Below are positions 24,358 through 62,495 of a stretch of DNA of 64,000 bases, in pieces. A program made the position numbers and the translations under genes. This DNA comes from Chiridota heheva (Eukaryota > Echinodermata > Holothuroidea > Apodida > Chiridotidae). The notes below the pieces were generated by a model, which worked only from the letters and a program-made list of their open reading frames with translations, ran no database searches and had not been told where the DNA came from. Location of the stretch: contig JAIGNY010003313.1 of assembly GCA_020152595.1 (NCBI GenBank), positions 186,001 through 250,000 of the forward strand, read 5' to 3'. Position 1 is the stretch's first letter, and each line of letters opens with the position of its first letter.

Positions 24358-24834
24358 TCATTTTCCATTTAAATACGCTTCTAGAATTTGAATCCCTTCC
24401 ACTTGCTGGATGTCTCTCAATGCTTCCTGCAGGTCATCCGTGCCTAGATCCACATACTCCACATACTTAAACACCTCCATGGCTGGACTGACCTTGTCCC
24501 TAAACCCCTCACACAGGGTAGTATTGATACCAAGAGCGTGAGCTAAAGCACGCCAGTTATGCCCCTCTCTTTCACCATCTAAAAGTGTTGCAAGTTTTTG
24601 TTTGACTGTGAAAGGTAGATGAGCAGAGGAAGATGCAAGTTCTTTGTTGTGACTGGTTGACGACGATGAATCATGTGACGAATTTGCATGTCTGGTATGA
24701 GGAAAGTGGAACTTTTCCTTGGCATGAGAATCTGAAAAATGTCGTGGAATGGGCTCTTTGTAATGTGGTGTCGGTCGTCGTTCTGTGAGTGGCACGTGCT
24801 GCGGAATATAAGCACTTGCAAATGCTCCCTTTGT
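24358..24834 (-). CDS. Fusion gene last exon: linker and Death domain
   Basis: The acceptor (aattcacag) is in phase 0. A roughly 70-residue His/Ser-rich linker is followed by a Death domain: LPFTVKQKLATLLDGE (helix 1), HNWRALAHALGI (helix 2 with the conserved W775 and LA..LG pattern), and a C-terminal DDLQEALRDIQQVEGIQILE pair of helices. It ends LNGK and TGA. AATAAA starts one base after the stop. Confidence 0.88.
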   Translation of the reverse strand, partial: TKGAFASAYIPQHVPLTERRPTPHYKEPIPRHFSDSHAKEKFHFPHTRHANSSHDSSSSTSHNKELASSSAHLPFTVKQKLATLLDGEREGHNWRALAHALGINTTLCEGFRDKVSPAMEVFKYVEYVDLGTDDLQEALRDIQQVEGIQILEAYLNGK

Positions 24835-27800: not shown

Positions 27801-30800
27801 TGGTTGGCTTAGAAGAATTTGTGTTGAAGGTTAGAAACACACCAGTCATGAATCAAACCAGGGTAGCAATGCAAAGAAATCAAGAATAATCATAGGCATT
27901 GATGACCTGTGGCCCATCGTTGAAAGTATTCCAGCTGTAAGAGTCTACTAATGTGCGATGAAAATATTGAAGAAATTATTGTTTTACACCTAATGAGATA
28001 AATATTACAGATTAATCCATGTCTTTTAACATTCACTTCAAAGAGTAACAATGAATTCAAAACTAATAATTGTAGTTACGGACAGATTAAAATTAAATGT
28101 TTGCCTGGGTATTGTTACTTTTTACGACCGGAATTACGCATCGCAAAATCAGCACGTGTTGACATAAATTAATGAGGTAACAGCCTGCTCAAGCTCAAAA
28201 CTCGTAAAATTCTCACGCCTTGTGATCTGTCATCCCCAGTTGCGGAATTCATAAACATATGTAGCCGCTATAACATTTCCCAACATGTGTAGTTACGAAA
28301 AACAAACCATCATTCTTGTTTTTTTAGTAATAAAAACTTAAAACGCTTGACTATTTATTGATACATAACAGCCCCATCAGCAAGTTAAAGTATACTCACG
28401 TTAAAAGGGCGTCCACTTTTGACAACAGGCCTGATGGAAATCCCCTACAGGAAACATCTAACACACATTTCAGGAACAACCCAAAACAATTCAGTACAGA
28501 TTATTTTGCAGATTATCATAAGTCTATCATGTGTCCCTCTATTCAAGTGATGACTTAATGTTTTTTTGCTATTCATTCGCAAGACACTTCATTATAAATT
28601 CCATTCAGTCGTCAGATCTATTATTCAACATTTTTTCATACCACAACAAATCCTTTAATTGCTGCTATTCAAGTCTGGGATGTATTTGTTCTCCTTTACA
28701 TAATTTTTTTTACTTCATAAAAATAGTGGGGAATTCCTTCCTAGGGCAGCTATCTTTAGTTCCCTAGTAGCTAAACAATGAATGAGGCCGGACGGACAAC
28801 AATGTGGACGGACGGACAAACGGACGGACGAACGGTAAAGATGCTATATCCCCTCTTCACCACCTTTGTTGGCAAGGGGATAATCAAGGCATTCATATTT
28901 GCGGCATTCATATCTCACCTCAGAGCTGGTGCATAGATCTAGGTACGCCAAGACCTGTGATGATGAATGGCGCTCCTGAACAAACAGAAGCTGGCAGAAA
29001 CCAGATGGGGCAGTCTTTATGAATTCCAAGAAATACATTGAATGGGCTTTGCACCATACATCTTGGTAAGGTATTTTCTGTGAAAAGATGATTTAAAGGT
29101 TTTGAATATGGCTTCCACAACTTATTCAAGAAATACAGAATAAAACATTTGTCAGTGTCGCAGTTCTACTTCACAAATGGGGGACAGCAACTCCCTAATT
29201 TCCCTCCACAAAAAACCCACTCCCTTGGGAATTATGACCCTGAACATGTAATAATTTCATAGCATACCGTGAAAATGAAAGCATAATTTAATATCTAATT
29301 TACAATATATTTTTGTACTCTCTGTTTATGCATAAAATAAGTACTGCACTTATAGTCATCAGCGTAAATTTCTTATAATATTTGTCTTTCCAAAATATAA
29401 CTACATAAATTTGTTACTTGGTTAACAATACTATCATAATACTTTCAAATTTTGCAATTTACAGTTTCCTCTCTTTTACTTTTTATACTTATTTAGCAAT
29501 AAAGTTTTATACATTGCACAAACCATTTTCCTGTTCTTATACAAAAAATTTCAATCACGTAAGTACTACTTTCAGTTTCTGTATATGCATCTAATCAACT
29601 TTTGATAACTAAGAGTTGTCAAATTTTCTTCTTTAAAATTTTCAAAGTTTTTGCTGAAAATATTTGACTTTTCCCACAAAATTAATGATTTTTTTGCTCA
29701 ATATATCTGACATTTTCCTCCAAATCTGCTCAATATATCCAACTTTTTGCTCAAACTTTCTGATGTATTCGCTCAAAATATCTGACATTTTGCTCAATTT
29801 TTTTTTAAATTTGTGTCATTCTGCCCCCACCCCAGGAAAGTCTAGCTATGTCAATGAAGTGTGATTTCAATCATTTCTACACGAATCAAATAGAACCGAG
29901 ACAAAATACAATTTTTTAACCCTTCCTTCATCATTTTCATGTCCTCTTTCATATAATATAAACATGTAGGACCACTAGACTCATCCTTCTTAAGTGCTAC
30001 AAAAAACAAATATCACTGGTGAATGACAGTTTCTCACCAAAGTACTGAAGCTTCCAGGAAACACCTGTAGACCCTGCAGATCCTGAATGGATATCATAAG
30101 GGCACCATTAGCTTCGAGGACTGCAAATGAAGGGGACTCATCCAACAGGTCAAACCCATTTTCTTTCTCTCTCCTTAGGACATTCTGACAAACAAAAGGA
30201 TGCAAATCAATTTAGAATACTTTTATCCTCCTCTGTATCTGTTAAAACACATGAATATCACATAAATATTCCTGGTAATAGAAATAGATCAAATCAAGCA
30301 AGCACAAATACTTCATTATTATCAAAAAGTAATAATTGTGGTGGACTTGGTTGAACGCACGGAACATTGTGTACCCTAATTTGATAATCTGAGAGTAACT
30401 GGCATGAAGTTTCATGTTTTCGCCTCTGCCAATCAAGGCAAGGTGCTGCTTTAAGAAACATATACCAACCATCTTGCTCCCTCCATATTTCTTTTGCAAA
30501 GTGTCCATCTGTCAAAATATTAAATCACAGTATTCATGTCCCTGTAGCCCCTCCCCGCCCCCTCTCCTCCCCACTGCTGAATGCCTTCAACAGTTACCAA
30601 AATAACCATGGACTGATTTTTAACTTCTATGAAGCATTATCATCTCCCAAAACAGGAATTTTGAAAATGGACAATAGCCACGCTTTCCACGTGTGCACCA
30701 TACATTGCATAGCGTAAGATAGGATATCAAAATGACATAACAAGGATGCTATCTATTCATCTTGGTGGAAAACTAATCTACAGGTCACTTTTGATTCTTT

Positions 30801-33800
30801 CGTCTTTTTTAAAGTATATAGCTGTTTTGAGCTCTAATTAGTGTTTTTTTAAAACCACGAAATAGAGCCTCCGGATGAGATGTTCAAGATTAGCAGTATC
30901 CTCCTCGCAACAAGCAAGACAAGGGATGCACTTAAGAACGTCATGTCACGGATTTATGCATTCTATCAACTTGCATGCCCTTTAATTAAATCAGGATTGA
31001 CATATCATTTGCATATCTATATAAGTTTCAATCCTCTCACAAATCCTACAGAAAATCTTTGAATGAAAATATTTATCATAAAAAGCCATTTCTGCACCAT
31101 GTCTATCACATTTAATCAAATGAAAAGTTGTTTGTCATTGAGAATTAATGTGTCATGCACTCACACAGGGTCTGAGGAAAGGGTGTGGTTTTTCATGAAT
31201 TCTACAGAACACCACCTAGAGGTGAGGGTGTAAAGTTTCGTCTTTTTCTCTATCCTAATTGTTCGGTACTTTTTTTAGAATTGGCATGCAAACACCATTG
31301 TAAGAATTTAGAAGCTCAATTCTGGAAATTGCCCCAAAATTTAATGTTACTGACACTAGCCAGAGTCAAACTTTAACTCAATTTTGGCTATAACTTTGCT
31401 TAAAACCAGAAACATCTCAACCGTCCCTCAAATGGAGCAGGGCTGGTCAAGTAAAAGTTCTATATTTCTTTGTTTCCCAAACCACAAAACTGTATACAGT
31501 TTCACCTTTCCTAGGCTCCTTCAAGATTACAACTACTCCCACTGGTGTTACATGGTATTTTTAGTGACACACATCAAAATATAATGGCATTTCTTGTAAT
31601 ATAAGTAGTAACCATAATCAATGCTGGCATTGTTTGTCTTTGCTGCTGGGGAAAGGTGAAATTAACTATAAGCAGAGAACTATTTATACCTCAATGTTAT
31701 GATGCAAAATTAATCTTGTGGAACAGTGTGGTTAATTTGTTGCTTGAAAATTGCAGGCCAATTTTTAAGCAGTGCCTCTACTAATAAAGTCTATGGACCT
31801 TGAACTGACTCTTGAGATACATTAAGGGGATATCCCACCCACACACCTGTCTGGGCCCCCTCTCTACATTACTAACTTACCCTTAACTTACACTATAAGC
31901 CTTATCAGTCTAATTGAATTCTGATCACTTTATTGCATAAACACTAGATCGCAATCAAGTTTGCCCCCTCTGGTGGCTCAAGTTAACCAGATACGTTACT
32001 GGCTATAATGCCAGTGTTCCAGCAATTTACACTTTCAGCTTTCAATGCAGAACTACATAACACCCAAAATAGGAATTAGTTAACACAATGTATCTCAGTG
32101 ATTATTTAAGGGATCACGGATGATAGCTAGTCATGTTGCTGCAGAATATTGGACGGCTAAGTGACCTGAATGGATGAGCTGATAAGCAAGTCCGCTAATA
32201 GATATTTGATTATTCATTATTTTTTAAACGCAACTTCTTAAAATGTTTTTCATTTTTCCCAACTTGAAAATGTTCATACATCATGGGATAATGGACCATG
32301 CAAATAAGGCGTGTGTCCCCATCAACTAATCACTTTGTAGGAAACTGTGTAAGGTCTATATCGTAAAGTGCACTGACCTGCCAGAACAGACCGCTCACAT
32401 CATCATTCACTATGTAGACCCGTATTTCTTCATTCTCTGACTGTCTGTCCTCAGAACAGAAAGCTGCACATTTTAATCTCTTTCCCAGGACTCCTTCCCC
32501 TTCAACAGTCACAGCAAAACTTGAAAAATACATCGATGATATAACAAAGGAATGATCTCTGACCTTGCATGATACTTCCAGGTCACTGTCCTTTACTTTC
32601 TTCCACTCATCTGCAAATAAACGAAAAGTTAATTTACTGACTACAGTGAGAACGATGAATAAACACCTGAGAGCAACTGTTAAGTATCAAGTTGAGATTA
32701 AGATCTTAAAGCCATTTGTTTATAAATATAGCAAGCCTCCTCTACCCTCTTTATCCTGATTCACAATTTGTAGATGAAACCAAGCACACAAGATCCAACA
32801 CAACATATTTTACACACTTGATGAAATGGCTCAAATGTAGGTTATAGTAGCAATGTCGTTTTGTAGTGTGGTAGGGTTGAATACTTTTACATTCTCTGTC
32901 AACTTAGACTGATTTGTAAGTTTTAGACCCAAATCTTCATATCTGTACCAAAACTGGTGAACCAAAGAACCTAATGGTTTCTGCTTATTACCCTGATCCA
33001 GCACCAAAGAACCTAATGGTTTCTGCTTATTACCCTGATCCAGCACCAAAGAACCTAATGGTTTCTGCTTATTACCCTGATCCAACACCAAAGAACCTAA
33101 TGGTTTTTGCTTATTACCCTGATCCAGCACCAAAGAACCTAATGGTTTCTGCTTAATACCCTGATCCAACACCAAAAAAGCTAATGGTTTCTGCTTATTA
33201 CCCTGATCAAACACCAAAGAACCTAATGGCTTTTGCTTATTACCCTGATCCAACACCAAAGAACCTAATGGCTTTTGCTTATTACCCTGATCCAGCACCA
33301 AAGAACCTTATGGTTTCTGCTTATTACCCTGATCCAGCACCAACTATGGTTTTTTGGGTGAATATTACAAGGGACACATCCCTTTATTTGTGACCAGTCC
33401 ACGATCTGAACTCTACTAGGTAATTGAAGTTGTAATACTGTTCTGCATAAACATTAGATAACATGAACTACCTGGCCCATCCAACCCCTTTAGCCCTCGA
33501 TAACTCTCCTTGCCAGGGGCCCCACTTGACTGCTCAAGCTGGATACCCCACTGCAAAGCATGCAGCCATGGTGTTATTCATAGCAGAGCCATAATTCTCA
33601 CTCAAAAAGTGAGGAGAGGACAAAGCCTCTTATCCAATTAGTGTGAGGGGAGGGGGAGGTTGCCAAGAGGCAAAATTTCCCCAAAATTGACTGAATTGTT
33701 AAAATTCTCCTGAAAAGTGAGGGACATGTCTTCCTGTCCCCCAGATATTACGGCTCTGATTGATACCCAGATATTATGGCTCTGATTGATACCCAAATAT

Positions 33801-35651
33801 TACAGCTCTGATTGATACCCAGATATTATGGCTCTGATTGATATTCAAATATTATGGCTCTGATTGATACCCAGATGTTACGGCTCTGATTGATACCCAG
33901 ATATTATGGCTCTGATTGATACCCAGATATTACGGCTCTGATTGATACCCAGATATTACGGCTCTGATTGATACCCAGATATTACGGCTCTGATTGATAC
34001 CCAGATATTCCGGCTCTGATTGATACCCAGATAATACGGCTCTGATTGATACCCAGATATTACGGCTCTGATTGATACCCAGATATTACGGCTCTGATTG
34101 ATACCCAGATATTACGGCTCTGATTGATAGTGTTTGTTACAATTCTACAAAACAAGGATACCTTCATCTTCTTGCTTCTTCCATAGAACTGGATTAACCT
34201 TGTCTGAATCTTCACTTAAGATGACACAATGCTGTAACTCCAGCTGAATGGGATGCAGAACGCCAATCACAGGATCAGATGATTTACATTTAAATACAGG
34301 GCTCACTGTCCCATGAACCTTAGTTCCAGAAATTTCTTGTACATTTATAAATAGGACTGACGTGCTTATAGCTGCAGTTGTAATGTCCCCCACATCTATT
34401 CCGTGAGGGGGAACTTTTAAAGTTAAAACTTGCTCGTTGACTGATAAGCCTCTGTTCGACACCCACTGATCATCAGAAATTATATTTTCACTAGATAAGG
34501 TGTGATAGTCAATAAGCTCAATAATATCGTCCTCAGAGTCCGTGTAGCTTACACTACTCCTGGTGTCACTAGACAATGATCCTGATGAACCTGGTTTTTC
34601 ATTCCTTTTGATCCCTGGCCTTGGTAAAGTAGCTGGACTTCTATCTGCAGATCAAAAAAATTAAGTCATGAAATCATGTAAAATCTTATATGAATTATGA
34701 TGAACTTGCAATTTGTTTTGAAACAGCAGTTAATTTGCCCAGGGCACTTCTATATATGGGATATATGCATGTGTGAATGATACATCATGAATAAGTATTG
34801 TTCAAATTCTTTTGTTTAGTGCCTAATGTCTGCAGTAACTGATTAGTAGGCAGCCTTTTGTTGCGCACCTTGTTTAATATGGTTTGCTTGCACCCTTGCT
34901 TTGCTTGCATCATTTCTTCAGCAGCATTCTTCATTGACATCCGTTGATGCTTTTCCTTAAGCTTTATTTACCTTTCTTTCATTTATCACAAAAGATTGAA
35001 TCAAAGTTTTTACATTTTCAAACTTAGCTCCTCTTCCTGAAACACTTGTTTACCAGTGTGCTAATAACACTTTCCCTAATGTTTTCAACGGTTGCTTTTT
35101 GTCCAGCACTTATTTCCATGTTTATACCATGAAATTTAGACCTCCACTTTTCACAAGCACTTTGCCAAAGCAGTATTTAATTTTCTGCTTCATGATATTT
35201 GTAATTCCTGAATTCCCAAGAAAAATTAATTTCTCACCTGCACTTTAATGCCTTAAAGTCAAATTTAAAACAATATTTATTTTTGAATTACCTTGGTTTA
35301 TATCTTGAAAACTTCTTGGAACTCTTAATTTTTCATGTATTCCTTCTTTTTTAAGTGTTGCTATTATCCCTATTGTTATCTTTTCATGCATTATTTTTAT
35401 GTAAATCATTATTCTTTTGTTTTTTATCTATTTTTAATCAAATTTTTATTATTATTATTAATATTATTATTATTTATTTTATTTTTTAAATTTATTCTAT
35501 TATCAATTATTATTATTATTATTAGAAAATATTATAATTATTATTACAATTATAATTATAATTATTATAATAATCATAACAATTATATCAATTATAATAA
35601 TAATGATTATATTACTTACAATTATATCAATTATAATAATAATGATTATAT

Positions 35652-35685
<34 letters not shown>

Positions 35686-35686
35686 G

Positions 35687-35749
<63 letters not shown>

Positions 35750-38700
35750 TTATATTATATTTTACTTTGTTTATTTATTTATTTATTTATTTACTTTTTT
35801 TTTTTTTTTTGGGGTGGGGGGAAGGGATACTGAGCAAGCACTTATAAGGTTTTTTTTTTTCCCTGAACCAATGCAATGCATCTAATATGTATCTCTGTAT
35901 ATCCCTGAACCAATGCAATGCATCTAATATGCATCTCTGTAAATGTTTGTATTCTATGTTATTTCTTCAATATATCCCTGAACCAATGCAATGCATCTAA
36001 TATGCATCTCTGTATTTGTTTGTATTCTATATGCAATTTCTTCAATATATCCCTGAACCAATGCAATACCTCTAATATGCATCTTTGTATTTGTTTGTAT
36101 TCTATATGCTATTTCTTCAATATATTCCTGAACCAATGCAATGCATCTAATATGTATCTCTGTAGTTGTTTGTATTCTATATGCTATTTCTTCAATATAT
36201 CCCTGAACCAATGCAATACCTCTAATATGCATCTCTGTATTTGTTTGTATTCTATATGCTATTTCTTCAATATATCCCTGAACCAATACCTTTAATATGC
36301 ATCTCTGTATTTGTTTGTATTCTATATGCTATTTCTTCAATATATCCCTGAACCAATGCAATACCTCTAATATGTATCTCTGTATTTGTTTGTATTCTTT
36401 ATGCTATTTCTTCAATATATCCCTGAACCAATGCAATGCATCTAATATGTATCTCTGTAAATGTTTGTATTCTATATGCTATTTCTTCAATATATCCCTG
36501 AACCAATACAATACCTCTAATATGCATCTCTGTAAATGTTTGTATTCTATATGCTATTTCTTCAATATACCCTGAACCAATGCAATACATCTAAAATGTA
36601 TCTCTATAAATGTTTGTATTCTATATGCCATTTCTTCAATATATCCCTGAACCAATGCAATACCTCTAATATGTATCTCTGTAGTTGTTTGTATTCTATA
36701 TGCCATTTCTTCAATATATCCCTGAACCAATGCAATACCTCTAATATGCATCTCTGTAAATGTTTGTATTCTATATGCTATTTCTTCAATATATCCCTGA
36801 ACCAATGCAATATATCTAATATGCATCTCTGTAAATGTTTGTATTCTATATGCTATTTCTTCAATATATCCCTGAACCAATGCAATACCTCTAATATGCA
36901 TCTCTGTATTTGTTTGTATTCTATATGCTATTTCTTCAATATATTCCTGAACCAATGCAATGCATCTAATATGTATCTCTGTAGTTGTTTGTATTCTATA
37001 TGCTATTTCTTCAATATATCCCTGAACCAATGCAATACCTCTAATATGCATCTCTGTATTTGTTTGTATTCTATATGCTATTTCTTCAATATATCCCTGA
37101 ACCAATGCAATACCTTTAATATGCATCTCTGTATTTGTTTGTATTCTATATGCTATTTCTTCAATATACCCCTGAACCAATGCAATACCTCTAATATGTA
37201 TCTCTGTATTTGTTTGTATTCTTTATGCTATTTCTTCAATATATCCCTGAACCAATGCAATACCTCTAATATGCATCTCTGTAAATGTTTGTATTCTATA
37301 TGCTATTTCTTCAATATATCCCTGAACCAATGCAATACCTCTAATATGTATCTCTGTAGTTGTTTGTATTCTATATGCCATTTCTTCAATATATCCCTGA
37401 ACCAATGCAATACCTCTAATATGCATCTCTGTAAATGTTTGTATTCTATATGCTATTTCTTCAATATATCCCTGAACCAATGCAATGCATCTAATATGCA
37501 TCTCTGTCTTTGTTTGTATTCTATATGCTATTTCTTCAATATACCCTGAACCAATGCAATACCTCTAATATGCATCTCTGTAAATGTTTGTATTCTATAT
37601 GCTATCTCTTCAATATACCCTGAACCAATGCAATACATCTAAAATGTATCTCTGTATTTGTTTGTCGTCTATATGCTATTTCTTCAATATATCCCTGAAC
37701 CAATGCAATACCTCTAATATGCATCTCTGTATTTGTTTGTATTCTATATGCTATTTCTTCAACATATCCCTGAACCAATGCAATACCTCTAATATGTATC
37801 TCTGTAAATGTTTGTATTCTATATGCTATTTCTTCAATATATCCCTGAACCAATGCAATACCTCTAATATGTATCTCTGTAGTTGTTTGTATTCTATATG
37901 CCATTTCTTCAATATATCCCTGAACCAATGCAATACCTCTAATATGTATCTCTGTAGTTGTTTGTATTCTATATGCCATTTCTTCAATATATCCCTGAAC
38001 CAATGCAATACCTCTAATATGCATCTCTGTAAATGTTTGTATTCTATATGCTATTTCTTCAATATACCCTGAACCAATGCAATACATCTAAAATGTATCT
38101 CTATAAATGTTTGTATTCTATATGCTATTTCTTCAATATATCCCTGAACCAATGCAATACCTCTAATATGTATCTCTGTATTTGTTTGTATTCTATATGC
38201 TATTTCTTCAATATATTCCTGAACCAATGCAATGCATCTAATATGTATCTCTATAAATGTTTGTATTCTATATGCTATTTCTTCAATATACCCCTGAACC
38301 AATGCAATACATCTAAAATGTATCTCTATAAATGTTTGTATTCTATATGCCATTTCTTCAATATATCCCTGAACCAATGCAATACCTCTAATATGTATCT
38401 CTGTAGTTGTTTGTATTCTATATGCCATTTCTTCAATATATCCCTGAACCAATGCAATACCTCTAATATGCATCTCTGTAAATGTTTGTATTCTATATGC
38501 TATTTCTTCAATATATCCCTGAACCAATGCAATATATCTAATATGCATCTCTGTAAATGTTTGTATTCTATATGCTATTTCTTCAATATATCCCTGAACC
38601 AATGCAATACCTCTAATATGCATCTCTGTATTTGTTTGTATTCTATATGCTATTTCTTCAATATATTCCTGAACCAATGCAATGCATCTAATATGTATCT

Positions 38701-47700: not shown

Positions 47701-50700
47701 GTAGTTTGGCAAGACCGTATTGAAAGCACTTGAAAAATTGAGAAAAAGAACCTTTGACATGCTTGTTTCTTTACAATTTATATGAGTCACTATATCGTTA
47801 ATTAAAACTAGTACAGCATCTACACATGAAACACCCTTCTTGTAAGCAAATTGATACACATCTCCAAGTTGTTCTACACAGCGAGGCAGTAACAAAATTC
47901 AAATTCAATTAATCTGAGCCATTATTTGCCCACAAGGCCGGTGCTTGTCTCTGGTTTCCTATGATGGTGCAAGCAGATGAGGTCATATGCCTCCCACTGG
48001 ACGGGAGATGCTTAGTGGACTCAGTGGTTAAGGATCATCGTGCTCATATGCAAAAAGTGCCGGAATCAACTCCCGTTGTGACCACTGCATTATGTCCTTG
48101 AGCTTGACTCTACTTGCCCCAGCCCGCTCAGTGTACTACCAATTAAGACACCTTTATTTGATCAATTGTTACCTTTGTCTTTTCCATAGTAGGATTCTCA
48201 GTTTCTAATTGAATATATTTGCGAATCCTCACAGCTTCATACCATTCCACCATTTCCTGAAAATAGATAAACAAAAATGATACAGCGCATTAAGCCTTCA
48301 TCCAAAGCACTTCAATAAATGTATAAATCTTGTTATAGTTTTAGGTAAACAATTGTTGCCTTCATGTATGCTATGAATCATCAGCGGCGCTGTCAGGGGT
48401 TTGATATTGGGGGAGGGGGCACAAATCTTTTTGGCATGGGGTCAAGGGGCCCGCCTTGGAGCTCCTTGTGCGGTCCAGGGAAACCTCGCATTTTCCAAGT
48501 TTTAAGTGCCCCAAAAAGACTTGGAATGTGTGCAGCAATACACTGCTCTTCGAAATAAATTAGGATGATTAAAAACGTTCTAATATACCGGCTTATAATT
48601 GTAGAATGATACAGACTACCTCCCCACCCCCCCTCCCGACCCCTTATTAAAAAAAGGTCAAAAATAGGGATTCGATATTTGAGAGCACAAACCTTTTCAG
48701 CATGGAGTCTGTGCAAAGCCCTGGTGGAGGGTCCTGGGGGCAAAGAACCGGGAAAACCTTGCATTTTCCAAGTTTTAGATACCCCCAAAAACTCTGAATA
48801 TGTGCAATACGCGGCTTTTAAAACTAAATTAGGATGATTATGAACAATCTAGTATAGCAGCATATAGTGTTGCAATGATACAGACTGCCCCCTCCCCCTC
48901 TCCCATTAAAAAATGTCAAAATAACCATTTTAAATTTGTTGGCATTTCAGACATACAGTACCCCCCTACCCCTGACAGTGCCACTGGATATCATTTTACT
49001 CAATTTACTGATAGAACTTATTCAAATGAAAACATTGAATACAAATTGTAAGTACTTTTTAAAAATCTTGGTACTTAACAACAATGGTAAATAACAACAA
49101 TATACTAGAAAACAATAATTTACTTCCACCTGAATTCAATGTGCTGGAAGGGACATCATAATTGTAGCCAGGGGCTTGAAAGCTTTTAATTATATCTTAC
49201 TAAATACAAAACAACCATGGATCTAAAGCAGAGGCGGCGGAAGATGTTTGCAACTTGAGGGGAACAGAATCTGAGGGGCACTTTCCAACTGTCATATTTC
49301 ATAGCATGTAGCACAGCAGCATAGCTTTATAGAGTTGACTCTCCCCCTCCCCCCTAAGATAAAGATCAATTATTTTCATCTCTGTAGAGAGGCACCTTTT
49401 AAACTTAACAACAAAGATGGGGGGAGGGCATGTCATGATCAGTTTATGCCATGACAATGGTCCAGGTCCAAATAGTAAGTTTTGCTCTGCATGGCCCATC
49501 TCAAAGATGCCCCAATAATAAAATTTGGTTTGATCCTATTCTAAAGAGTTTTTACAAACTATAAGGTGAGAAAACAAAGGTAGGCAGAGTCAAAGGTTTT
49601 TTAAGTATGAAAAATTCCAAAATGTAAGGCTGTTGGGCCCTAACTTTGTCTTTAGGGGAAATTCAAAACAGTGTATGCGTACAAAGCGAGTAAATTTTCA
49701 CAATTTTGGTTATTGTAGGGCAATATTTATGTTACTTTCTTTATTGAAAAGATCAGATATATAGTCTTTTCTTCAGAGAAAAAGTGTTTCAATGTTTGAA
49801 AGAACAAGTTAACTCTCTAAAAAAAAAGGCACTTGTCCTCTTTAAAAGGGCACTTTTCCTTCTGAAAAAGAGCACTTTTGCCTCCTGGAAAGGACTCTTT
49901 TCTTTTCTGAAAAAGGACACTTTTTAAACTTTTAAGAAAAGTAGGGGCATGTGCCCCCCTGTACCCCCCCCCCCCCTTCCCCATCAACCCCAGATTCCAC
50001 TGCCTATGACCTAAACTATGACCTAAATCAAGTCACAATACTGCAATATTCCCATTTAATCCCAATTTCTGTATTATTGATATTTCAAGACCACTGAATT
50101 ACCAGAGCTTCTTGGGATTTTCCCCTGGGCTGCCACCGAGGGTTTACCATTTAGATCCAACTGGGGGACATTGTGATGAAATAAGGTACTCTCACACACT
50201 TTGTATGCTGGCTAGTTCTGCCACTTCCTGAAATCTGACAAAAATGACCCCCTAAAATTTTCAAGTTTTTTTCTTCTTAAAATGACTACTTCATGATCTA
50301 GTAGCGATAGATAGTAGCAATCATCAATATAACCATTGCCTTTACTGCATGAATGTTATACCCATATCACATGAGGGAAATACCTCCTATTGTGCATGCT
50401 ACCATACTGGTCTGGTACTTCCTTAACAATTTCCTATTTAAAACCATTTACAACATTCATGCAGGCACACACACAGCTTTTGGTGCTTGGTATTTTCATC
50501 TTCAAGGAAAAGCTAAGGAGGAAATGATCTTGATCTAAACAACGAAGAACAACAAACTGTGTGTGGCAGGTAGAGCAAGCACAAGATAATCTTGCTGATA
50601 AGTTGAGAGGTCAGAATAATGTAAATAATGATCAACTTTCAGTGCAGGAGCATGCTTATTATTTTAGGAACATGTATAACACTTGAGAATATTAAAGCCA

Positions 50701-53700
50701 TATTGTTCATATGTTACAGTAAATGTAATATTTCCTAATGTGTATACTTAAAATATCATACAAAATATTTGTTGAAAAACATTTCATTTTTCAAAATGGC
50801 TGTTTTGCACCTAAAAGCCTAGCTCTATTGTCTATTATTTCTAATATTTCAAAATGGCATGGTGAACATATCAAATGGGAGTGGAATTTTTTTGTTAGCT
50901 ATGACTTTAAAGTTTCCCCTAACAAAGATATTTTTCCCAGACGTATTCCAAATTTGAAATATGTAACATAGCAAAGGAACATGGGAAATATCACAAAATT
51001 TTGGCTCAGCTTCCACGTAATAAAATGATCCAATTGTTAGGAACATTTGTGTTCCTTTTAGCAGGCATGCTCCCAGACTGACTTTGACCTTCTTCTATTC
51101 AGCAGATATCTATGAGACATATATCACAAGTTTGCTGAAAATGACTGGTGAAGGAATTCTACTGTAGGATATTGACATCACCCCCTTAACTTCCTTTCCA
51201 ATTATCAATGTGCATTAATTAAAAATCAATGTTGAGGCAGTGTTTATATAAGCATTTAATGCACTGGGCAAAGGACTTTGGTTTGAGTGGAATGTCCCGG
51301 CTTTAGGAGGGCCATTGGCGAGTGCAAAGTCCTTTGAACAGTGCATTAAATGCGTATATAAACACAATGTCGAAAACATGATTCCTTTTGTACAATTTCT
51401 GTGTTAGATTGTTTAAAATGAATGAAAAACAATTCAAAAGAATGAAGAACCAGAAAAGTGTACATATATTGTTTCACTTTATCAAGAAATTCACCCGTTG
51501 TAAAAATGAGCTCTTTCCAATTTTTGAGCTCCTTCCAAATTTTGTTCACGTAGTACATATCATTTATGACCTTATCAGCTGATCATCCAATGCTTCAAGT
51601 CACAGGAAATAATTCAATGAAAATATGCAAAGACTTTTAATGAATATGCAGTGGTCTTTTATAGGCTGTTTTCCTTGTTTGTAATGAAATCTGTTTTTCA
51701 CCATGTTGTGTCTTTTAACATCCTTGACCACTAAAGCAGCACCACCGACTGGGGGGTCTTGTTCCTCTCAGTTCTCCCTAAGATTAAAGTTCCATGAGTC
51801 TCTTTATGGAGTGGACCCTTCCATCATCTATACTATTTTGTTAAGTTTTGTTAACTGCTGTTTACAAGGCTTTAATCAGCACCTATATTTCAAGCTGGCT
51901 TGGTTCTCCCTACCCCCCACTCCAAAAATAAAATAATAAAATAATAATAATAATAATAATAATAATAATCATAATCATAATAATCATAATCATAATCAAA
52001 ATAAGCATAACAAATAAATAAATTGAAAAGGCCTTTGCCACAGAGGCATTGAAAACGGAAAAAGAATTCCTGAAAATGAAGGAAATTGCACAAAAATGAA
52101 GGAAATTTTATCAAAATAAAGGAAATTTTATCAGAATTGAAGGAAATTTCCCAAAGATTCTTCTCAAAAATAAAATCAAAATTGCCGAAAATTAAGGAAA
52201 TTGCATGAAAATTGAAGGAAATTTCCCAAAAATTGAAGATTCCCCAAAAGCAAAGATTTCTGGAAGAAAAGGTGGCAATATTGTGTCTGACTCTTCATTT
52301 ATTACTTATTATTTTAATATATTCACTTCATAGGAATATTTTCCAAGGGTCAAAAAGCTTACCACTGGTGGAGGGAGGAGGGGGAACAATCAAAAGGAAT
52401 GGGGGGGGGCATTTTCTCCCAGTTAGTATGCTAAAACAGGATATGCAAAATACTATATGGTGGAACAACTTGAGGAAGTTGAGCAGAGCATTCTCACAGA
52501 AGGGTGGTGCCCCTGACTCAAATCTAAGGTAAAGAAATGGTTGCGACTGCATGGGGACTCATGCACTTACTTTGGCTGCTTCGGCATAAAGGTATATAAC
52601 CCTGATGGTGTTTCCTTTGGTCTCAGGAAAGAGTAGTTGCATAGCATTTTCGTTATCAATCTTATCCTCCGAGGCTAGGCACAGATCGAGGTCCAGTAGT
52701 TTTATTTCTCCCCGAAGTTGCCGCTCCTGAAAATAGAAATATGGGAAAGTGTCATCAAACATGGTTGCATGATCAAGAAAGGGGACACATTCCTGCACAA
52801 GTATTACAATACGTCTTTCAATAGCATTTGTAAAATTTGCTTTTTGTTTCAAAAATTCCTTTTAAGTGTGATTATGATGACATTCATTTTTTCATTTTTT
52901 TAAGCTAAATATCACTGTTGAATATTTGCTAGGCATGAATTGTCCTAAATGAGTGATTCTGTAGATTTACGGCAATAACCTTCGAGAGTTCACCATTCTC
53001 ACTATGACTTTTAAGAGTTCATCGCCTCTACCTGTCTATTAGCTACATAATTAGATGAATGGGCACTTAATTTTACATCTCATCATGAAAATGGCAGTTA
53101 TAAACATTGTCCACCTGTCGACGAAGACAACGAGTATTTAATTACTATGACGGGGTCGTCGCCTGCGTATTCGGTTATGATAGTAACAATGCTATCATGA
53201 AACGCTTAATATGACCCAGACGAGAACACAGGTACAACGTACTGACAGACATAACATCGACAACCAAGTCAATGTCCAAGGCCTTTGATAACCAGTTGTG
53301 GGGCACTGGCATGTCTACCCAACCCAGGCTTGAACCCAGGGCCTCGTGGTATGTAGACATGTATGATGATCGCTACACCACAGTTAGCATCAGTGGTATT
53401 TATAGGGAGACATGCTGTGGTTCTTCTAAGGGTGGTATACTGGTATTTGGGATGTGGTCAGTCAGATAGATCTAGTTCAGTTAATGAATGTTTTAAACTG
53501 TTTGTATTTTGTGATTTCCTATATGTCAATTGTTGGAAGTAACCAATCTTAGACTTAAGATATTACTTAAGATATTTGTGGGGAAGCTCCCTAATTCAAT
53601 AGAGATATTTACTAGAAAAGAGAATAAATATAGGTGATTTTGAGAGCAAAGAAGTCAGTTGGAGTTGAAGCCAAGATATACTAGTAGCAATATAGCAGAA

Positions 53701-56700: not shown

Positions 56701-59327
56701 TATTCCTTAACCCTGGGCTGTGTTCCTTAACCCTGGGCCATGTTCCTTAAACCTGGGCAGTGTTCCTCAACCTTGAGCAGTGTTCCTTAACCCTGTGCAT
56801 ATTTCTTAAGCCTGGGCCGTGTTCCTTAACCCTGGGCTGTTCCTTAACCATGAGCCGTGTTTCTTAACCCTGGGCAGTGTTCCTTAACTCTGGGCCATGC
56901 TCCTTAACCCTGGGCTGTGTTCCTTAACCCTGGGCCATGTTCCTTAAACCTGGGCAGTGTTCCTCAACCTTGAGCAGTGTTCCTTAACCCTGTGCATATT
57001 TCTTAAGCCTGGGCCGTGTTCCTTAACCCTGGGCTGTTCCTTAACCATGAGCCGTGTTCCTTAACCCTGGGCAGTGTTCCTTAACTCTGGGCCATGCTCC
57101 TTAACCCTGGGCCATGTTCCTTAACCCTGAGCATGTTTCTTAACCCTGGGCCGTGTTCCTTAACCCTGGGCCGTGTTCCTTAACCCTGGGCCGTTCCTTA
57201 ACCATGAGCCATGTTCCTTAACCCTGGGCAGTGTTCCTTAACCCTGAGCATGTTTCTTAACCCTGGGCAGTGTTCCTTAACCCTGGGCCGTGTTCCTTAA
57301 CCCTGGGCAGTGTTCCTTAACCCTGGGCCGTGTTTCTTAACCCTGGGCCGTTCCTTAACCATGAGCCGTGTTGCTTAACCCTGGGCCGTGTTCCTTAACC
57401 ATGAGCCTTGTTTCTTAACCCTGGGCCGTGTTCCTTAACCATGAGCCGTGTTCCCTAACCCTGGGCCGTGTTCCTTAACCCTGGGCCGTTCCTTAACCAT
57501 GAGCCGTGTTCCTTAACCCTGGGCCGTGTTCCTTAACCCTGGGCCGTGTTTCTTAACCCTGGGCCATGTTCCTTAATCCTGGACTGTGTTCCTTAACTCT
57601 GGGCCATGTTCCTTAACCCTGGGCCCAAATCTGGTATCAGGCTCTTAAAAACACACACTTTGAGGTCTATGAAAACATGCACTCACCTCATGGTCTATGT
57701 AGTACTTAAGCATTGGAATATCCTCTACATCCAGCACGAACCATCTCTTCTGGAACAGCTTGTCCCCTCTGCCCCTTTTCCAGAGATATCCACTCTTCAT
57801 ACCCCCAAGGTATCGGGGTTGATTTGACCGATTAAAAAATTGTTTCTTCACGTATTTGGTATTTATCCAGTGCTCCCTAAACCTCCTGTCAGACAAAATA
57901 AAATGTTCAGGATATATGAATCAGAGAACAAAATTATTCATATTAGAGCTATTTTCACAGTTGTTTTTGCATTTTTTAACCTAAAAAAAGAAATATTTTC
58001 ATGGACCAAATTGCCACCAAAAGTAAATAGATGCAAGTCCAGATTAACTCTCCAAACTTGATAGATAGCTAAGTTAGGTGAAATGTTTGAACAAGTATTA
58101 GTGTTAACAATATTTAGCTTTTTTATGTTGATAAAATATGATCAGTGAGCCCCACTCAGGTACTTCTATCCCCAAGAGGCGCCTCTTCTATACTCAGGCT
58201 GTACAGCAGCTGGGAGATACTGCTTGGATTCAAAACCCCAGTTACACTTCTAGATTTAAAACCCCAGTTATACTTCTGGATTCAAAATCCAGGTTACACT
58301 TCTGGATTCAAAACCCCATTTACATTCCTGGATTTAAAACCCCATTTACACTTCTGGATTCAAAACCCCAGTTATACTTCTGGATTCAAAACACGTTACA
58401 CTTCTACAATCTTGGACAAAAATGTTGGCTTTTTGAGAACTACATATATTATAGTGTTGTTTCTTTAATATTTTTTCAGAGAATTGTAACCCCCTAAGCC
58501 CTACCCCCTTCCCTGCTCTCCCTTTCGATGTTGAATTTAGTTATTTTTTAACGTCATTTCCAGGAAAAACAGTAACAACGGCCAACAATGGATGGGGAGG
58601 GGGAGGGGAGGACAATTAATATAGTGAGGTTGGGGATGGGGACACTGGCGGCATCAATGAAATGATAAAAATGTCCTTAAAATTTAAAAATATTAATCAA
58701 AATTGGAAAAGTAGAGATTGAAGAAGCGACAGAAATTTTTTTCCAGCATTTCTAATTTCTAAATGTGCAATAATTTACAAAAGAAAAGTAGCTTCATGAA
58801 AAGCATCACATATTTTCACCAAGTGTTTCAACGAGTTTTGTTTAAGATTGTAGATTCAAAACCCCAGTTACACATCTAGATTCCAAACACCAGTTACACT
58901 TCTAGATTCCAAACACCAGTTACACTTTTGTTTAGAGACTATAACAAAATTTAATGAATAGATGTAAGACACACTTTATTTCTGGAAACAAATGGCTGAT
59001 TAACAAATAGTTTGTTTGTTTGTTTGATGAGGGCTTAACGGCACCATGACAACGAAGGTCAAATTGTGCCTGAGAGGTCAGATCATTCTAGAGGTAGGAA
59101 GAAAAGACTTAGTTTTATGAAGTTAAGGTTGGGGTTAGGTTAGGGTTAGGGATTTTTCTACTTTGTCACCACTTATAAACAACAGGTGCCAAGGAAATTT
59201 TCACCACTTGTACAGCAGCGTGACTGAGACCCTACCTGTCAAAACATCGTGTTGGTCTTCTGTATGCGATGGGCAAGTCTTTTTCTAGTCTGTTATTGGT
59301 GCTTTCATTTGATACGAGGGAAACTGC
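24358..59327 (-). CDS. ADAP-like (ArfGAP tail, PH, PH) fused to ZU5-UPA-Death domain protein; 12 exons, 5' partial
   Basis: Twelve exons on the minus strand join without a phase conflict: 59327-59236, 57885-57687, 52726-52571, 48256-48173, 45071-44937, 42986-42794, 34644-34162, 32610-32378, 30508-30347, 30184-30038, 29077-28919 and 24834-24358. If all are used they give 839 residues. Visible order: ArfGAP C-terminal helix region (1-40), PH1 (60-165), PH2 (186-283), Ser/acidic linker, ZU5 (about 345-447), UPA (about 449-680), His/Ser-rich linker, Death domain (about 754-836), stop. The first part matches ADAP1/2 (centaurin-alpha), phosphoinositide-binding GAPs for Arf6. The rest matches the ZU5-UPA-Death supramodule known from UNC5, PIDD and ankyrin. 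Vertebrate ADAPs end shortly after PH2. I infer a membrane-recruited adaptor linking PIP3/Arf signals to death-domain partners. The zinc-finger exons were not found and should lie upstream. Two adjacent genes is the alternative, but the PH2 exon has a perfect donor and no stop. Confidence 0.75.
26161..26312. mobile_element. hAT-type MITE, 152 bp, exact 8-bp target duplication
   Basis: The ends TAGGCCTGTAGCCA and TGACTACGGGCCTG are near-perfect inverted repeats. AGTCAAGG flanks both sides (26153-26160 and 26313-26320). Confidence 0.65.
27090..27690. repeat. Diverged tandem duplication (about 287 bp) with recurring CCGCNNCGG boxes
   Basis: GACCGCCACGGTATA-like boxes lie at 27094, 27149, 27207, 27435 and 27494. 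The stretches after 27207 and after 27494 align (AAAATAAxTTxGA, TTTCCxTGAAA, TTTTGAT, AAAAGTTTATCCTACC). Confidence 0.5.
28791..28836. repeat. GGAC-type microsatellite
   Basis: Interrupted GGACGGACGGACAAAC units. Confidence 0.7.
28919..29077 (-). CDS. Fusion gene exon: end of UPA domain
   Basis: The exon is 53 codons, phase 0 to phase 0, with acceptor tcttttcacag and donor GAG followed by gtgaga. KIPYQDVWCKAHSMYFLEF corresponds to the UNC5 UPA stretch EIPFYHIWSGSQKALHCTF, and LLFVQERHS fits the strand that follows. Confidence 0.75.
29640..29815. repeat. Degenerate short-period repeat
   Basis: TTTGCTCAAxATATCTGACATTTT-like units recur about six times within the J-K intron (29078-30037). The rest of that intron shows nothing. 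Confidence 0.5.
30038..30184 (-). CDS. Fusion gene exon: UPA segment, possible alternative exon 2
   Basis: The exon is 49 codons, phase 0 to phase 0, with acceptor tttgtcag and a strong donor (TTTG followed by gtgaga). ENGFDLLDESPSF and ALMISIQDL align with the UNC5 UPA piece LLEEPKPLPF and LRLSIHDL. Confidence 0.75.
30347..30508 (-). CDS. Fusion gene exon: UPA segment, possible alternative exon 1
   Basis: The exon is 54 codons, phase 0 to phase 0. The acceptor (attttgacag) is good; the donor (CAA followed by gtccac) is weak. The sequence MDTLQKKYGGSKM and GENMKLHAS resembles the UPA stretch that follows the RVYxxND strand. The next exon, only 162 bp away, matches the same stretch, so one of the two may be used at a time. 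Confidence 0.6.
30509..32377 (-). other. Intron inside UPA
   Basis: GT-AG bounded, AT-rich, no repeat or exon recognised. Confidence 0.45.
32378..32610 (-). CDS. Fusion gene exon: first half of UPA domain
   Basis: The acceptor is tatttgcag and the donor is gtcagt; phase runs from 1 to 0. Features typical of UNC5/ankyrin UPA domains are present in order: W450 after ZU5, a CKVRDHSFVIS and FSSFAVTVEG strand pair, a GKRLKCAAFCSE strand (KRLRLAVFA in UNC5), and EEIRVYIVNDD (LRVYCLDDT in UNC5). Confidence 0.8.
32960..33346. repeat. 42-bp minisatellite (about 9 copies)
   Basis: The unit contains AACCTAATGGTTTCTGC, TTATTACCCTGATCCA and GCACCAAAG. It lies in the ZU5-UPA intron. Its period is a multiple of three, so both strands show open frames of no significance. 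Confidence 0.9.
33740..34128. repeat. 26-bp minisatellite (about 15 copies)
   Basis: The unit CTGATTGATACCCAGATATTACGGCT (26 bases) repeats with C/T variants. The array ends about 30 bp from the ZU5 exon donor. Confidence 0.9.
34162..34644 (-). CDS. Fusion gene exon: linker and ZU5 domain
   Basis: The acceptor is gatctgcag and the donor is gtatcc. Phase is 1 on both sides. The exon encodes a Ser-rich and acidic linker (SSVSYTDSEDDIIEL), then a ZU5-like fold. VLTLKVPPHGIDVGD parallels the family pattern of a beta strand followed by IPPGAI. GTVSPVFKCKSSDP.IGVLHPIQLELQHCV parallels the SPVVxxxP.G..F.xPVxLxIPHC core. Confidence 0.8.
35445..35810. repeat. ATT/ACT trinucleotide and poly-T microsatellites
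   Basis: Runs of ATT and AAT are followed by about 32 ACT triplets (35652-35748), TTTA units and a T tract. Confidence 0.9.
35866..40377. repeat. 75-bp minisatellite, about 60 copies (4.5 kb), with higher-order blocks
   Basis: The unit includes CCCTGAACCAATGCAATACC, TCTAATATGCATCTCTGTA, TTTGTTTGTATTCTATATGC and TATTTCTTCAATATAT. Variable sites mark subtypes (TACC/TGCA, GTATTT/GTAAAT/GTAGTT, TGCT/TGCC). Blocks of subtypes recur in the same order: about 36540-37130 matches about 38280-38830, and about 37240-37860 matches about 39930-40377. Open frames of 60 to 337 codons on both strands come from the period of 25 codons; units one or two bases short break them. Confidence 0.95.
40766..41913. 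repeat. 17-bp minisatellite, about 67 copies
   Basis: The unit is CTTCATAAAGCACCCTG. Copies are almost perfect, with length variants only near the two ends (41700-41830 and the first units). The homogeneity suggests recent expansion; copy number may be under-assembled. Confidence 0.95.
42364..42699. repeat. 42-bp degenerate minisatellite (8 copies)
   Basis: The unit includes CCTCTGAAACAATGAATTAT, CAGGTATTATATG and TTAACGCTT with several substitutions per copy. It ends about 95 bp from the PH2 donor. Confidence 0.85.
42794..42986 (-). CDS. Fusion gene exon: rest of PH2
   Basis: The exon encodes DANPKGVIML (ADAP: DAFARGEVFIG) to DRQIWIKAIHQACNK with the helix Trp W276. The acceptor is ttcaatag. 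The donor is AAAG followed by gtaggt, phase 1, so the protein does not end with PH2. The first base G joins AT of the exon at 34644 to give Asp. This junction carries the fusion. Confidence 0.88.
42987..44936 (-). other. Intron inside PH2
   Basis: GT-AG bounded. It holds a roughly 61-bp minisatellite (44145-44650) and a short duplicated segment around CATAAACTGATACAA (43309-43390). Confidence 0.5.
44145..44650. repeat. About 61-bp minisatellite (8-9 copies)
   Basis: The unit includes GGCTCATAGCCAGGATCATT, CTCAAAGGGAGGGGGGAA and TTTTGATGCTCAGT. Copies vary in the G-tract length and in AAAGG/GGAGG. Confidence 0.88.
44937..45071 (-). CDS. Fusion gene exon: start of PH2
   Basis: The exon is 45 codons, phase 0 to phase 0, with acceptor ctaatcag and donor gtgggt. 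DILKEGYLLKTG followed by AFRKRWMVLHGKRLLYFKEP matches ADAP PH2 (LKEGYMEKTG, FRKRWF, LMYFKDPLDA). The basic K-x(n)-RKRW pattern is typical of phosphoinositide-binding PH domains. Confidence 0.9.
45941..46525. mobile_element. Foldback MITE-like element, copy 2 (inverted relative to copy 1)
   Basis: The ends GGTCAAGCAAGTC and GACATACTTGATCACTG are inverted. Internal blocks (AATGACTGGTGTAGTAAGTC, TTGAGGAAT/CTGAGG, TGTATTCTATCATAT) match 5391-5940 on the opposite strand. It lies in the intron between 45072 and 48172. Confidence 0.6.
46560..47900 (-). pseudogene. Decayed non-LTR retrotransposon, reverse transcriptase part
   Basis: Minus-strand frames at 47895-47443, about 47430-47330, 47337-47002 and 46967-46728 together resemble the palm and thumb of a LINE reverse transcriptase. 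KVLFLNFSSAFNTV stands where LFLDFSSAF is expected (catalytic Asp replaced by Asn). GVPQGGPLSAALFTIYTDEI is a clear block 4. IKYANDTAIL stands for the YADDT box with its first Asp replaced. Frameshifts and stops separate the pieces, and the endonuclease part is missing. It is a dead 5'-truncated copy in the same orientation as the host gene. Confidence 0.8.
48005..48150 (+). mobile_element. tRNA-derived SINE
   Basis: A box A-like TAGTGGACTCAGTGGTTAAG at 48013 and a box B-like GGAATCAACTCC at 48061 are followed by ATGTCCTTGAGC and CTCTACTTGCC blocks shared with the fragment at 6880. It sits about 30 bp from a PH1 exon donor. Confidence 0.6.
48173..48256 (-). CDS. Fusion gene exon: C-terminal helix of PH1
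   Basis: The exon is 28 codons, phase 0 to phase 0, with acceptor ttttcag and donor gtaaca. EMVEWYEAVRIRKYIQL carries the invariant PH-domain helix Trp (W154) and aligns with EIVDWFNALRAARF of ADAP1. Confidence 0.85.
48382..48985. mobile_element. MITE-like element with internal duplication
   Basis: The ends CAGCGGCGCTGTCAGGGG and CCCCTGACAGTGCCACTG are inverted 18-mers with few mismatches. Inside, a block of about 270 bp (AAACCTCGCATTTTCCAAG, TTAGGATGATTA, ATGATACAGACT) is present twice in direct orientation. Confidence 0.65.
49229..50002. mobile_element. Degenerate non-coding element (CAGAGGCGGCGGAAG end)
   Basis: The left end is CAGAGGCGGCGGAAG and a possible right end is ATTCCACTG. It shares the AAAAGGCACTT and GGGGCATGTGCCCCC region with the element at 18077-19611. 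Confidence 0.4.
50003..51239 (-). other. Intronic sequence, nothing recognised
   Basis: Part of the intron between 48257 and 52570. AT-rich, without a repeat or exon that I can support. Confidence 0.35.
51240..51367. repeat. Hairpin, arms of about 42 bp
   Basis: The left arm TGTTTATATAAGCATTTAAT plus GCACTGGGCAAAGGACTTTG pairs with the right arm CAAAGTCCTTTGAACAGTGC plus ATTAAATGCGTATATAAACA, around a loop of about 42 bases. It is probably a small foldback element. Confidence 0.75.
51934..52245. repeat. AAT microsatellite and degenerate GAAGGAAATT repeats
   Basis: Runs of AATAATAAT and ATAATC are followed by AT-rich units of the form TGAAGGAAATTxxxxCAAAAA. The same degenerate family reappears at 55510-56040. 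Confidence 0.7.
52571..52726 (-). CDS. Fusion gene exon: middle of PH1
   Basis: The exon is 52 codons, phase 0 to phase 0, with acceptor tattttcag and donor gtaagt. The sequence EIKLLDLDLCLASEDK and TIRVIYLYAEAAK fits PH strands beta5-beta7 and aligns with the ADAP segment ending IFIYHEDGK. Confidence 0.85.
53190..53400 (-). mobile_element. tRNA-like SINE head
   Basis: On the minus strand a box A-like GTGGTGTAGCGATC (about 53375-53388) and a box B-like GGGTTCAAGCC (53328-53338) stand about 40 bp apart. The flank is non-coding. A functional tRNA is unlikely, as the stems do not close. Confidence 0.45.
53401..54360 (-). other. Intronic sequence, nothing recognised
   Basis: Part of the intron between 52727 and 57686. 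A C tract lies at 54290-54300. No exon is supported. Confidence 0.35.
54370..54868. repeat. 49-bp minisatellite (10 copies)
   Basis: The unit includes GTGGAGTCTTGCTTTGAGTC, ACCACTAACTCCTACACC and TATGGAGGGCA. Copies are nearly identical. Confidence 0.93.
55510..56210. repeat. Degenerate AT-rich short-period repeat
   Basis: About 25 diverged units of the form AATTGAAGAAAATTxCCCAAA occur here. The same motif family is at 52060-52245. Confidence 0.7.
56645..57632. repeat. 20-bp minisatellite (about 49 copies) with 197-bp higher-order unit
   Basis: The unit is TTCCTTAACCCTGGGCCGTG with variants (CAGT, CATG, CTGT, ATGAGCC). A block starting TGGGCTGTGTTCC at 56714 recurs at 56911 with the same order of variants, a 197-bp higher-order period. 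It ends about 55 bp from the PH1 exon donor. Confidence 0.93.
57687..57885 (-). CDS. Fusion gene exon: linker and first half of PH1
   Basis: The acceptor is gtctgacag and the donor is gtgagt. The exon encodes RRFREHWINTKYV, matching the ADAP helix (LREQWIRAKY type), then PH1 strands beta1-beta4 with GYLWKRGR and FQKRWFVL. Basic residues K67, R68, K77 and R78 lie where ADAP PH domains contact inositol phosphates. It ends in phase 0. Confidence 0.88.
58210..58400. repeat. About 25-bp minisatellite (7 copies)
   Basis: The unit is TTCTGGATTCAAAACCCCA followed by GTTACAC. Three more diverged units lie at 58850-58930, so the two may be parts of one split array. Confidence 0.85.
59010..59115 (-). 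mobile_element. 3' end fragment of a non-LTR retrotransposon
   Basis: TTTGTTTGTTTGTTTGATGA, then GGGCTTAACGGCACC and GGTCAAATTGTGCC, matches the 3' end of the LINE at 62891-64000. On the minus strand it ends in a CAAA tail, typical of LINE 3' termini. It is heavily 5'-truncated. Confidence 0.6.
59236..59327 (-). CDS. Fusion gene, first visible exon: end of ArfGAP domain
   Basis: The acceptor is tatttacag and the donor is gtaggg. Residues 1-30 include EKDLPIAYRRPTRCFD, which aligns with the ADAP segment where the ArfGAP domain's last helices meet the linker (FESKVP..YYRP in the family). This predicts a zinc-finger exon further upstream on the minus strand. The exon ends in phase 2 (AG), completed by G of the next exon to Arg. 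Confidence 0.75.
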
Positions 59328-59676
59328 CTGTAAATAAAACAAATATATATACTGTATGATCAAATCAATTCATTTTTGTTCTCAATACTTTACACACCTC
59401 AAGTCATGTTAATTCCATGAAGACATAGCGCTGGCCTCCATTAATTGTACCAGCCCCTCACCTCCCCCCCCCCCCTCCCAAAAAAAAAGAAGTTTCTGTA
59501 TGCTTAGATAATAACGTCAAAAATGAACTATGAAGATGAAAATCCAGAACACATATTTAGTACTGCAACATTCTGTTTTCACCATGAGCAACACATATTT
59601 TGTCCAATTATTGTATAGTACTGCTACTGCTAAGTCTAATCTGTGTTGTATGTATGACTGCATGCATATAGGCAGA

Positions 59677-60190
59677 AAGGCCACACTTGAAAAACCTTTA
59701 ATTTTGTTGAATTTTGATTCTTATTTCAAAATTCTTGCATCCCTGGACATGAAACTCGTCAACATTGCAAGATGAATTCCATTCCCTGCAAAAACTATTC
59801 ACAAACATTTCTCATCAGATGCGAAATTGTGGAAAATTTGGAGCTATTCTGAAAGTTATGTAAGATTTACCAAAACAGCCATTTGTTTGCAGTCTCTATC
59901 AAATTCATTGAGATTATTAATTATTAAATGAGTAAATAACAGTCAACATAATTTAAGAGGATATTTTCACCCCAAGTTTCGAATTTGTTCATGATCAAAT
60001 GTAAATAGTTGTGTCCTGAAAAGTGTCTCAAATTTTACCAGGTTTGGATGAAAATTTTGCATATTCTTACTTTTTAAGAGTATCATGGCCACGAGCGTGA
60101 GACTTTTTAAGTAAGAATCAAAACCGCGAAAAAAACATTGAGGTTTTTCCTATGGAGTCGAACACCAGGCTGCTATTTCAAGTGCAGCCC
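59677..60190. mobile_element. Inverted-repeat element (MITE-like), copy 2
   Basis: The left end GGCCACACTTGAAA and the right end GCTATTTCAAGTGCAGCC match the copy at 8055-8758. The interior is similar (GAATTCCATTCCCTGCAA, CCTATGGAGT). There is no coding capacity. Confidence 0.6.
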
Positions 60191-61535: not shown

Positions 61536-61625
61536 CGGAAGTGCAAGCGGAAGTGCAAGCGGAAGTGCAAGCGAAAGTGCAAGCAAGAGTGCAAGTGAAA
61601 GTGCAAGCGAAGTGCAAGCGGAAGC
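61536..61625. repeat. 12-bp minisatellite (about 7 copies)
   Basis: The unit is GGAAGTGCAAGC with small variants. Confidence 0.85.

Positions 61626-62464: not shown

Positions 62465-62495
<31 letters not shown>

Follow-up and report, generated by a model that had tools for sequence, protein, structure and literature searches.

The window, by which we mean the whole 64,000-nucleotide stretch of Chiridota heheva DNA analysed here, carries on its minus strand a gene model that runs from an ADAP-type ArfGAP-PH-PH protein into ZU5, UPA and a C-terminal Death domain, an architecture that had been proposed earlier and is supported here by the rebuilt model, the alignment with orthologues and the Pfam calls. 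When the 24-64 kb region was re-read and the gene rebuilt, the spliced model comprised 11 exons and 785 residues, with GT-AG at every intron border and compatible phases throughout. The minus-strand exon order, splice borders and matching phases of the original prediction were thus confirmed, whereas its 12 exons and 839 residues were not, and its acceptor of exon 2 was corrected to 57885, from which the translation reads CFDRRFREHW (CFDWRFREHW in the Apostichopus counterpart). No twelfth exon is needed between 28919 and 24834, since exon 10 (29077-28919) joins exon 11 (24834-24358) in phase 0 and the join aligns with the orthologues. The exons and the intron at the PH2/ZU5 junction are as follows.

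Exon 1 in the window, 59236..59327, minus strand: final part of the ArfGAP domain, aa 1-30; acceptor TTTACAG, donor GTAGGG.
Exon 2, 57687..57885, minus strand: final ArfGAP helix and beginning of PH1, aa 31-97; acceptor TTTGTCTGACAG.
Exon 3, 52571..52726, minus strand: middle of PH1, aa 98-149; matched by all 11 family proteins.
Exon 4, 48173..48256, minus strand: last helix of PH1, aa 150-177; 84 bases, matched at a loose threshold only.
Exon 5, 44937..45071, minus strand: first half of PH2, aa 178-222; contains the basic stretch FRKRW.
Exon 6, 42794..42986, minus strand: second half of PH2, aa 223-286; phase-1 donor.
Intron 6, 34645..42793, minus strand: spans the PH2/ZU5 junction; 8149 bases long, with tandem repeats making up 73%.
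Exon 7, 34162..34644, minus strand: linker plus the greater part of ZU5, aa 287-447; lacks an in-frame Met.
Exon 8, 32378..32610, minus strand: remainder of ZU5 and beginning of UPA, aa 448-525.
Exon 9, 30038..30184, minus strand: UPA, aa 526-574.
Exon 10, 28919..29077, minus strand: end of UPA, aa 575-627; placed by tblastn and splice borders.
Exon 11, 24358..24834, minus strand: a linker, the Death domain (aa 705-781) and the stop codon, with AATAAA following at 24356.

At the PH2/ZU5 junction, the phase-1 donor 42794 and the acceptor 34644 form one Asp codon, exactly as claimed. The accompanying claim that no stop follows PH2 holds only if donor 42794 is used; unspliced, exon 6 reads through 14 more codons to a stop, and ATTAAA lies beyond that stop at 42692. 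The tandem arrays of intron 6 consist of a 75-base unit repeated 60 times (35898-40377), with long open frames on both strands, and a 17-base unit repeated 68 times (40761-41913). Intron 4 contains a reverse transcriptase fragment on the minus strand (47446-47898, RVT_1, 4.6e-16), which, together with the adjoining frames down to 46731, looks like a remnant of a non-LTR retrotransposon. Two overlapping long open frames of 1108 and 418 residues lie at 3-4573 on the plus strand; they have no Pfam match at E<=0.01 and may represent a coding exon that belongs to an adjacent gene. Scans for tRNA genes and Rfam families found nothing, and a tblastn search of 59328-64000 with eight family proteins (E<=10) gave no minus-strand ArfGAP match that would place the zinc-finger exons there.

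A protein search with the draft model returned eight proteins, five of which had precomputed Pfam ZU5 and/or Death domains besides ArfGAP and PH; the three holothurian proteins among them had precomputed ArfGAP and PH only, and their C half was recognised by alignment. A profile built from seven family proteins then matched 28 proteins, of which 11 form the family (P0001-P0011, the first eight included); the remaining 17 comprise vertebrate ADAPs, ArfGAPs of other kinds and two unusual proteins. Its named members come from Apostichopus japonicus (two models), Asterias amurensis, Patiria miniata, Acanthaster planci, Amphiura filiformis, Diadema antillarum and Lytechinus pictus, so that the order ArfGAP-PH-PH-ZU5-Death is also predicted in named relatives; the 11 proteins do not equal 11 independent genes, as P0001 and P0003 are both from A. 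japonicus. No hemichordate or crinoid fusion was named among the 28 profile matches, for which candidates were limited by shared words and length. A scan of viral contigs with the PH-PH part gave no match. A separate protein, P0012 (1060 residues on a 3395-base contig), seemingly has two ArfGAP and several PH domains.

At E<=1e-3, tblastn with the 11 family proteins matched the window 73 times, without exception on the minus strand and within 10 of the 11 exons; exon 4 appeared only at a looser threshold. Exons 2, 3, 5, 6 and 8 were matched by every family protein, exon 7 by five, exon 11 by four, and exons 1, 9 and 10 by three each. Reversed or shuffled versions of the same proteins gave no match to the window, hence the matches exceed chance. 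Identity to P0001 was 53% for exon 1 (residues 111-142) and 70% for exon 2 (142-207), exon 5 was 39-71% identical to family proteins, and exon 10 matched P0001, P0002, P0003, P0006 and P0007, and P0004 weakly.

A Pfam search of the joined protein recovered PH twice (3.5e-32) and UPA (PF17217, 6.7e-10, aa 491-612); Death scored below the Pfam cut-off (0.0064) and ZU5 was not called in the window model. In the six orthologues scanned, ArfGAP was found in all (2.4e-11 to 5.2e-17), ZU5 in three (4e-7 to 9e-7) and Death above the cut-off in three (1.3e-10 in P0005); UPA was above it in none, being sub-threshold in P0001 and P0002 and unlisted for P0005-P0008, and P0001 and P0002 had neither ZU5 nor Death above it. 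The Death domain of the window matched that of NF-kB p100 (3.3e-4), and its nearest solved structures by sequence are those of NF-kB p100/p105 and UNC5B. A four-sequence profile of ZU5-UPA had no match among solved structures at E<=1. Taken together, the protein has the ZU5, UPA and C-terminal Death domain of the UNC5, PIDD and ankyrin group and the tandem PH domains directly after ArfGAP that characterise ADAPs (two Pfam PH domains, the ArfGAP tail in exons 1-2 and the ADAP1 fold in P0001 and P0005), but it does not end soon after PH2.

That a single gene encodes this whole order, from ArfGAP-PH-PH through ZU5-UPA-Death, we regard as close to certain. A tree of the N half was calculated from ten family proteins, the window and six ADAPs, and one of the C half from the same ten and the window, P0003 being omitted as the shorter A. 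japonicus model. In both trees the window clusters with Apostichopus and P0002 (support 100/100), and the echinoids (100/100) and asteroids (100/99) each form a group. Amphiura is placed with the asteroids in the C-half tree (100/98) and has no resolved place in the N-half tree, so that the halves show no supported conflict; the fusion is therefore probably older than the divergence of the four echinoderm classes sampled. In the N half the window shares 59% identity with P0002, and in the C half 38% with Apostichopus. Two family proteins sit on contigs too short for a genomic copy with introns this long, P0002 (887 residues, 5564 bases) and P0011 (1057 residues, longest contig 4939 bases), and are thus probably assembled transcripts; P0004 (928 residues, 7317 bases) may be one too.

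The stop and the ATTAAA immediately beyond unspliced exon 6 could also mean that the one gene has two products, a short ADAP-like form polyadenylated after exon 6 and a long form made by full splicing. We consider this improbable: a search restricted to proteins of about ADAP length, in which 2106 candidates were scored, contained no family form ending after PH2 among the best 120 of 217 matches. The same read-through stop and ATTAAA would provide an ADAP-like ending for the first of two adjacent genes, an ADAP and a ZU5-UPA-Death gene joined in error across an 8.1 kb intron made mostly of tandem repeats, and this very improbable reading was rejected, because the 11 family proteins are predicted in one piece (two on short, cDNA-like contigs), exon 7 has no in-frame Met, the trees of the two halves show no supported conflict, and the best 120 of the 217 ADAP-length matches are at most 39% identical to the query, whereas four family members reach 48-57% in this N half.

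The arginine finger (the GIHR position, R49 of ADAP1, which carries GIHR in the alignment with P0005) is kept in none of the 11 family proteins, the residue being E in P0001, P0002, P0003, P0008, P0010 and P0011, Q in P0004 (by alignment), P0005 and P0006, C in P0007 and Y in P0009. Among the matches listed, 127 of the 136 non-family proteins fit the motif and nine do not; the fitting ones have R in 121 cases, C in four, and L and Y in one each. The six reptile-named, ADAP1-like proteins with C, L or Y (P0035, P0047, P0064, P0068, P0078 and P0079) indicate that the arginine was lost outside the family too. An ordinary echinoderm ADAP with the arginine was not recognised among the best 120 of the 217 ADAP-length matches, whose named members (all but ten) are, we presume, vertebrate. 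The four zinc-finger cysteines are kept in orthologues with a complete finger; by eye, sea-star and brittle-star orthologues have CX2CX16CX2C with more cysteines before it, while the spacing in holothurians and Diadema differs. A Cys-rich insert that ADAPs lack precedes or extends the finger, and additional cysteines stand at its start in P0001-P0003 and P0005-P0011 (CADCQDCDCPHC in Asterias), possibly forming a second metal site.

ArfGAP catalysis requires this arginine (PMC4644846), and its replacement in ADAP1-R49K served to produce a mutant deficient in GAP activity (PMC6892435). The ArfGAP domain of the family is thus probably GAP-dead; for the window copy this would follow from its relatives, since its own zinc finger lies outside the window, beyond 64000. 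The original prediction of an Arf regulator is, in the catalytic sense, left unsupported, because none of the 11 family proteins has the arginine. A reading along its lines, in which an active Arf6 GAP couples its activity to an output through the Death domain, could draw on the clearly retained ArfGAP domain (Pfam in six orthologues and the ADAP1 fold) and on the four zinc-finger cysteines; with the catalytic residue missing from every family protein, we consider it improbable. A GAP-dead ADAP can nevertheless do part of the work, as ADAP1-R49K still speeds cell migration, slightly below the wild type, but does not raise invasion (passages of PMC6892435).

Structures were predicted for the family proteins P0001 and P0005 and were of modest confidence (mean pLDDT 71 and 66, pTM 0.46 and 0.42). 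The best match of the N half of both models was ADAP1, and that of the C half was the cytoplasmic domain of UNC5b. The latter aligns with ZU5-UPA only (463-750 of the P0001 model); the Death domain follows after 67-78 low-confidence residues in the two models, and a linker of this kind would allow an open form as an alternative to the closed, autoinhibitory packing described for UNC5b (PMC9596381). Passages of PMC3210808 describe self-cleavage of PIDD, NLRP1 and CARD8 at an HF/S or SF/S site. This site, placed by eye, is not conserved in the eight aligned proteins, which read YFG in Apostichopus, TGC in the sea stars and YFS in the window, the sole F-S and one without His; self-cleavage is therefore unlikely in the family. 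The basic PH residues K179, K305 and R317 (numbered as in P0001) are invariant in 20 aligned family and ADAP proteins. The earlier proposal of membrane docking is, through the PH domains, plausible.

The family thus shares with ADAP1 and ADAP2 (centaurin-alpha1/2) the ArfGAP-PH-PH order, fold and basic PH residues; the ADAPs listed are mostly 346-476 residues long and end after PH2, whereas the family lacks the arginine finger and adds about 500 residues of ZU5-UPA-Death. It shares the ZU5-UPA-Death order with the netrin receptors UNC5A-D, from which it differs in having no Pfam Ig or thrombospondin domain in the seven proteins scanned and a long UPA-Death linker. From PIDD1, NLRP1 and CARD8, with their autoproteolytic ZU5-UPA/FIIND, it is separated by the unconserved cleavage site. 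SH3BP4 and MACC1, which we take to be soluble adaptors with ZU5-UPA-Death and similar to the family in this respect, presumably carry SH3 where the family has ArfGAP-PH-PH. The Death domain was found in nine of the 11 family proteins when their ends were read; P0003 and P0007 (Acanthaster isoform X2, predicted) lack this region, thus Death-less forms may exist.

From these results, the explanation that fits best, and which we favour with some confidence, is an ADAP-derived protein of a single gene, arranged as ArfGAP, PH1, PH2, a disordered linker, ZU5-UPA, a long linker and Death. Its two PH domains would dock it on a membrane rich in PIP3 or PI(4,5)P2, and the ArfGAP domain, presumably no longer able to promote hydrolysis of Arf-GTP, might retain Arf binding or keep the PH domains positioned. 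ZU5-UPA would act as an adaptor that keeps or presents the Death domain, and as the protein gathers on the membrane, the Death domain could recruit a Death-domain partner of the caspase or NF-kB branch. This mechanism of membrane docking and Death output is a tentative one, to which we give slightly less than an even chance. Bolder, and on balance unlikely, is an echinoderm-specific pseudo-GAP that senses PIP3 or Arf6-GTP and builds a Death-domain platform on the membrane, as a lipid-gated counterpart of PIDD or a receptorless counterpart of a death receptor. The protein might instead be a cargo or cytoskeleton adaptor, like ankyrin or the ZU5-UPA of UNC5, whose Death domain takes no part in cell death; we think this unlikely, given that the domain is kept in most of the family and that NF-kB p100/p105 stand, with UNC5B, among its nearest solved structures.

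The original prediction knew of no described protein with this domain order. This agrees with the open-licence literature searched, in which no paper on an ArfGAP-PH-PH-ZU5-UPA-Death protein could be recognised from its title and the start of its abstract. Databases, however, already contain predicted proteins of this kind, the majority annotated 'uncharacterized'. For TRADD-N proteins, PMC8195603 mentions fusions with UPA-Zu5, in passages that contain no term beginning with Arf. The gene appears to be old, being found in four echinoderm classes. If the proposed mechanism is true, phosphoinositide/Arf membrane identity would be linked to Death-domain signalling in one polypeptide. To the best of our knowledge, no other protein makes this link. 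The family would also offer a natural GAP-dead ADAP, with which the scaffold function of ADAPs could be told apart from their GAP function, and embryos of sea urchins or sea stars would lend themselves to testing it.
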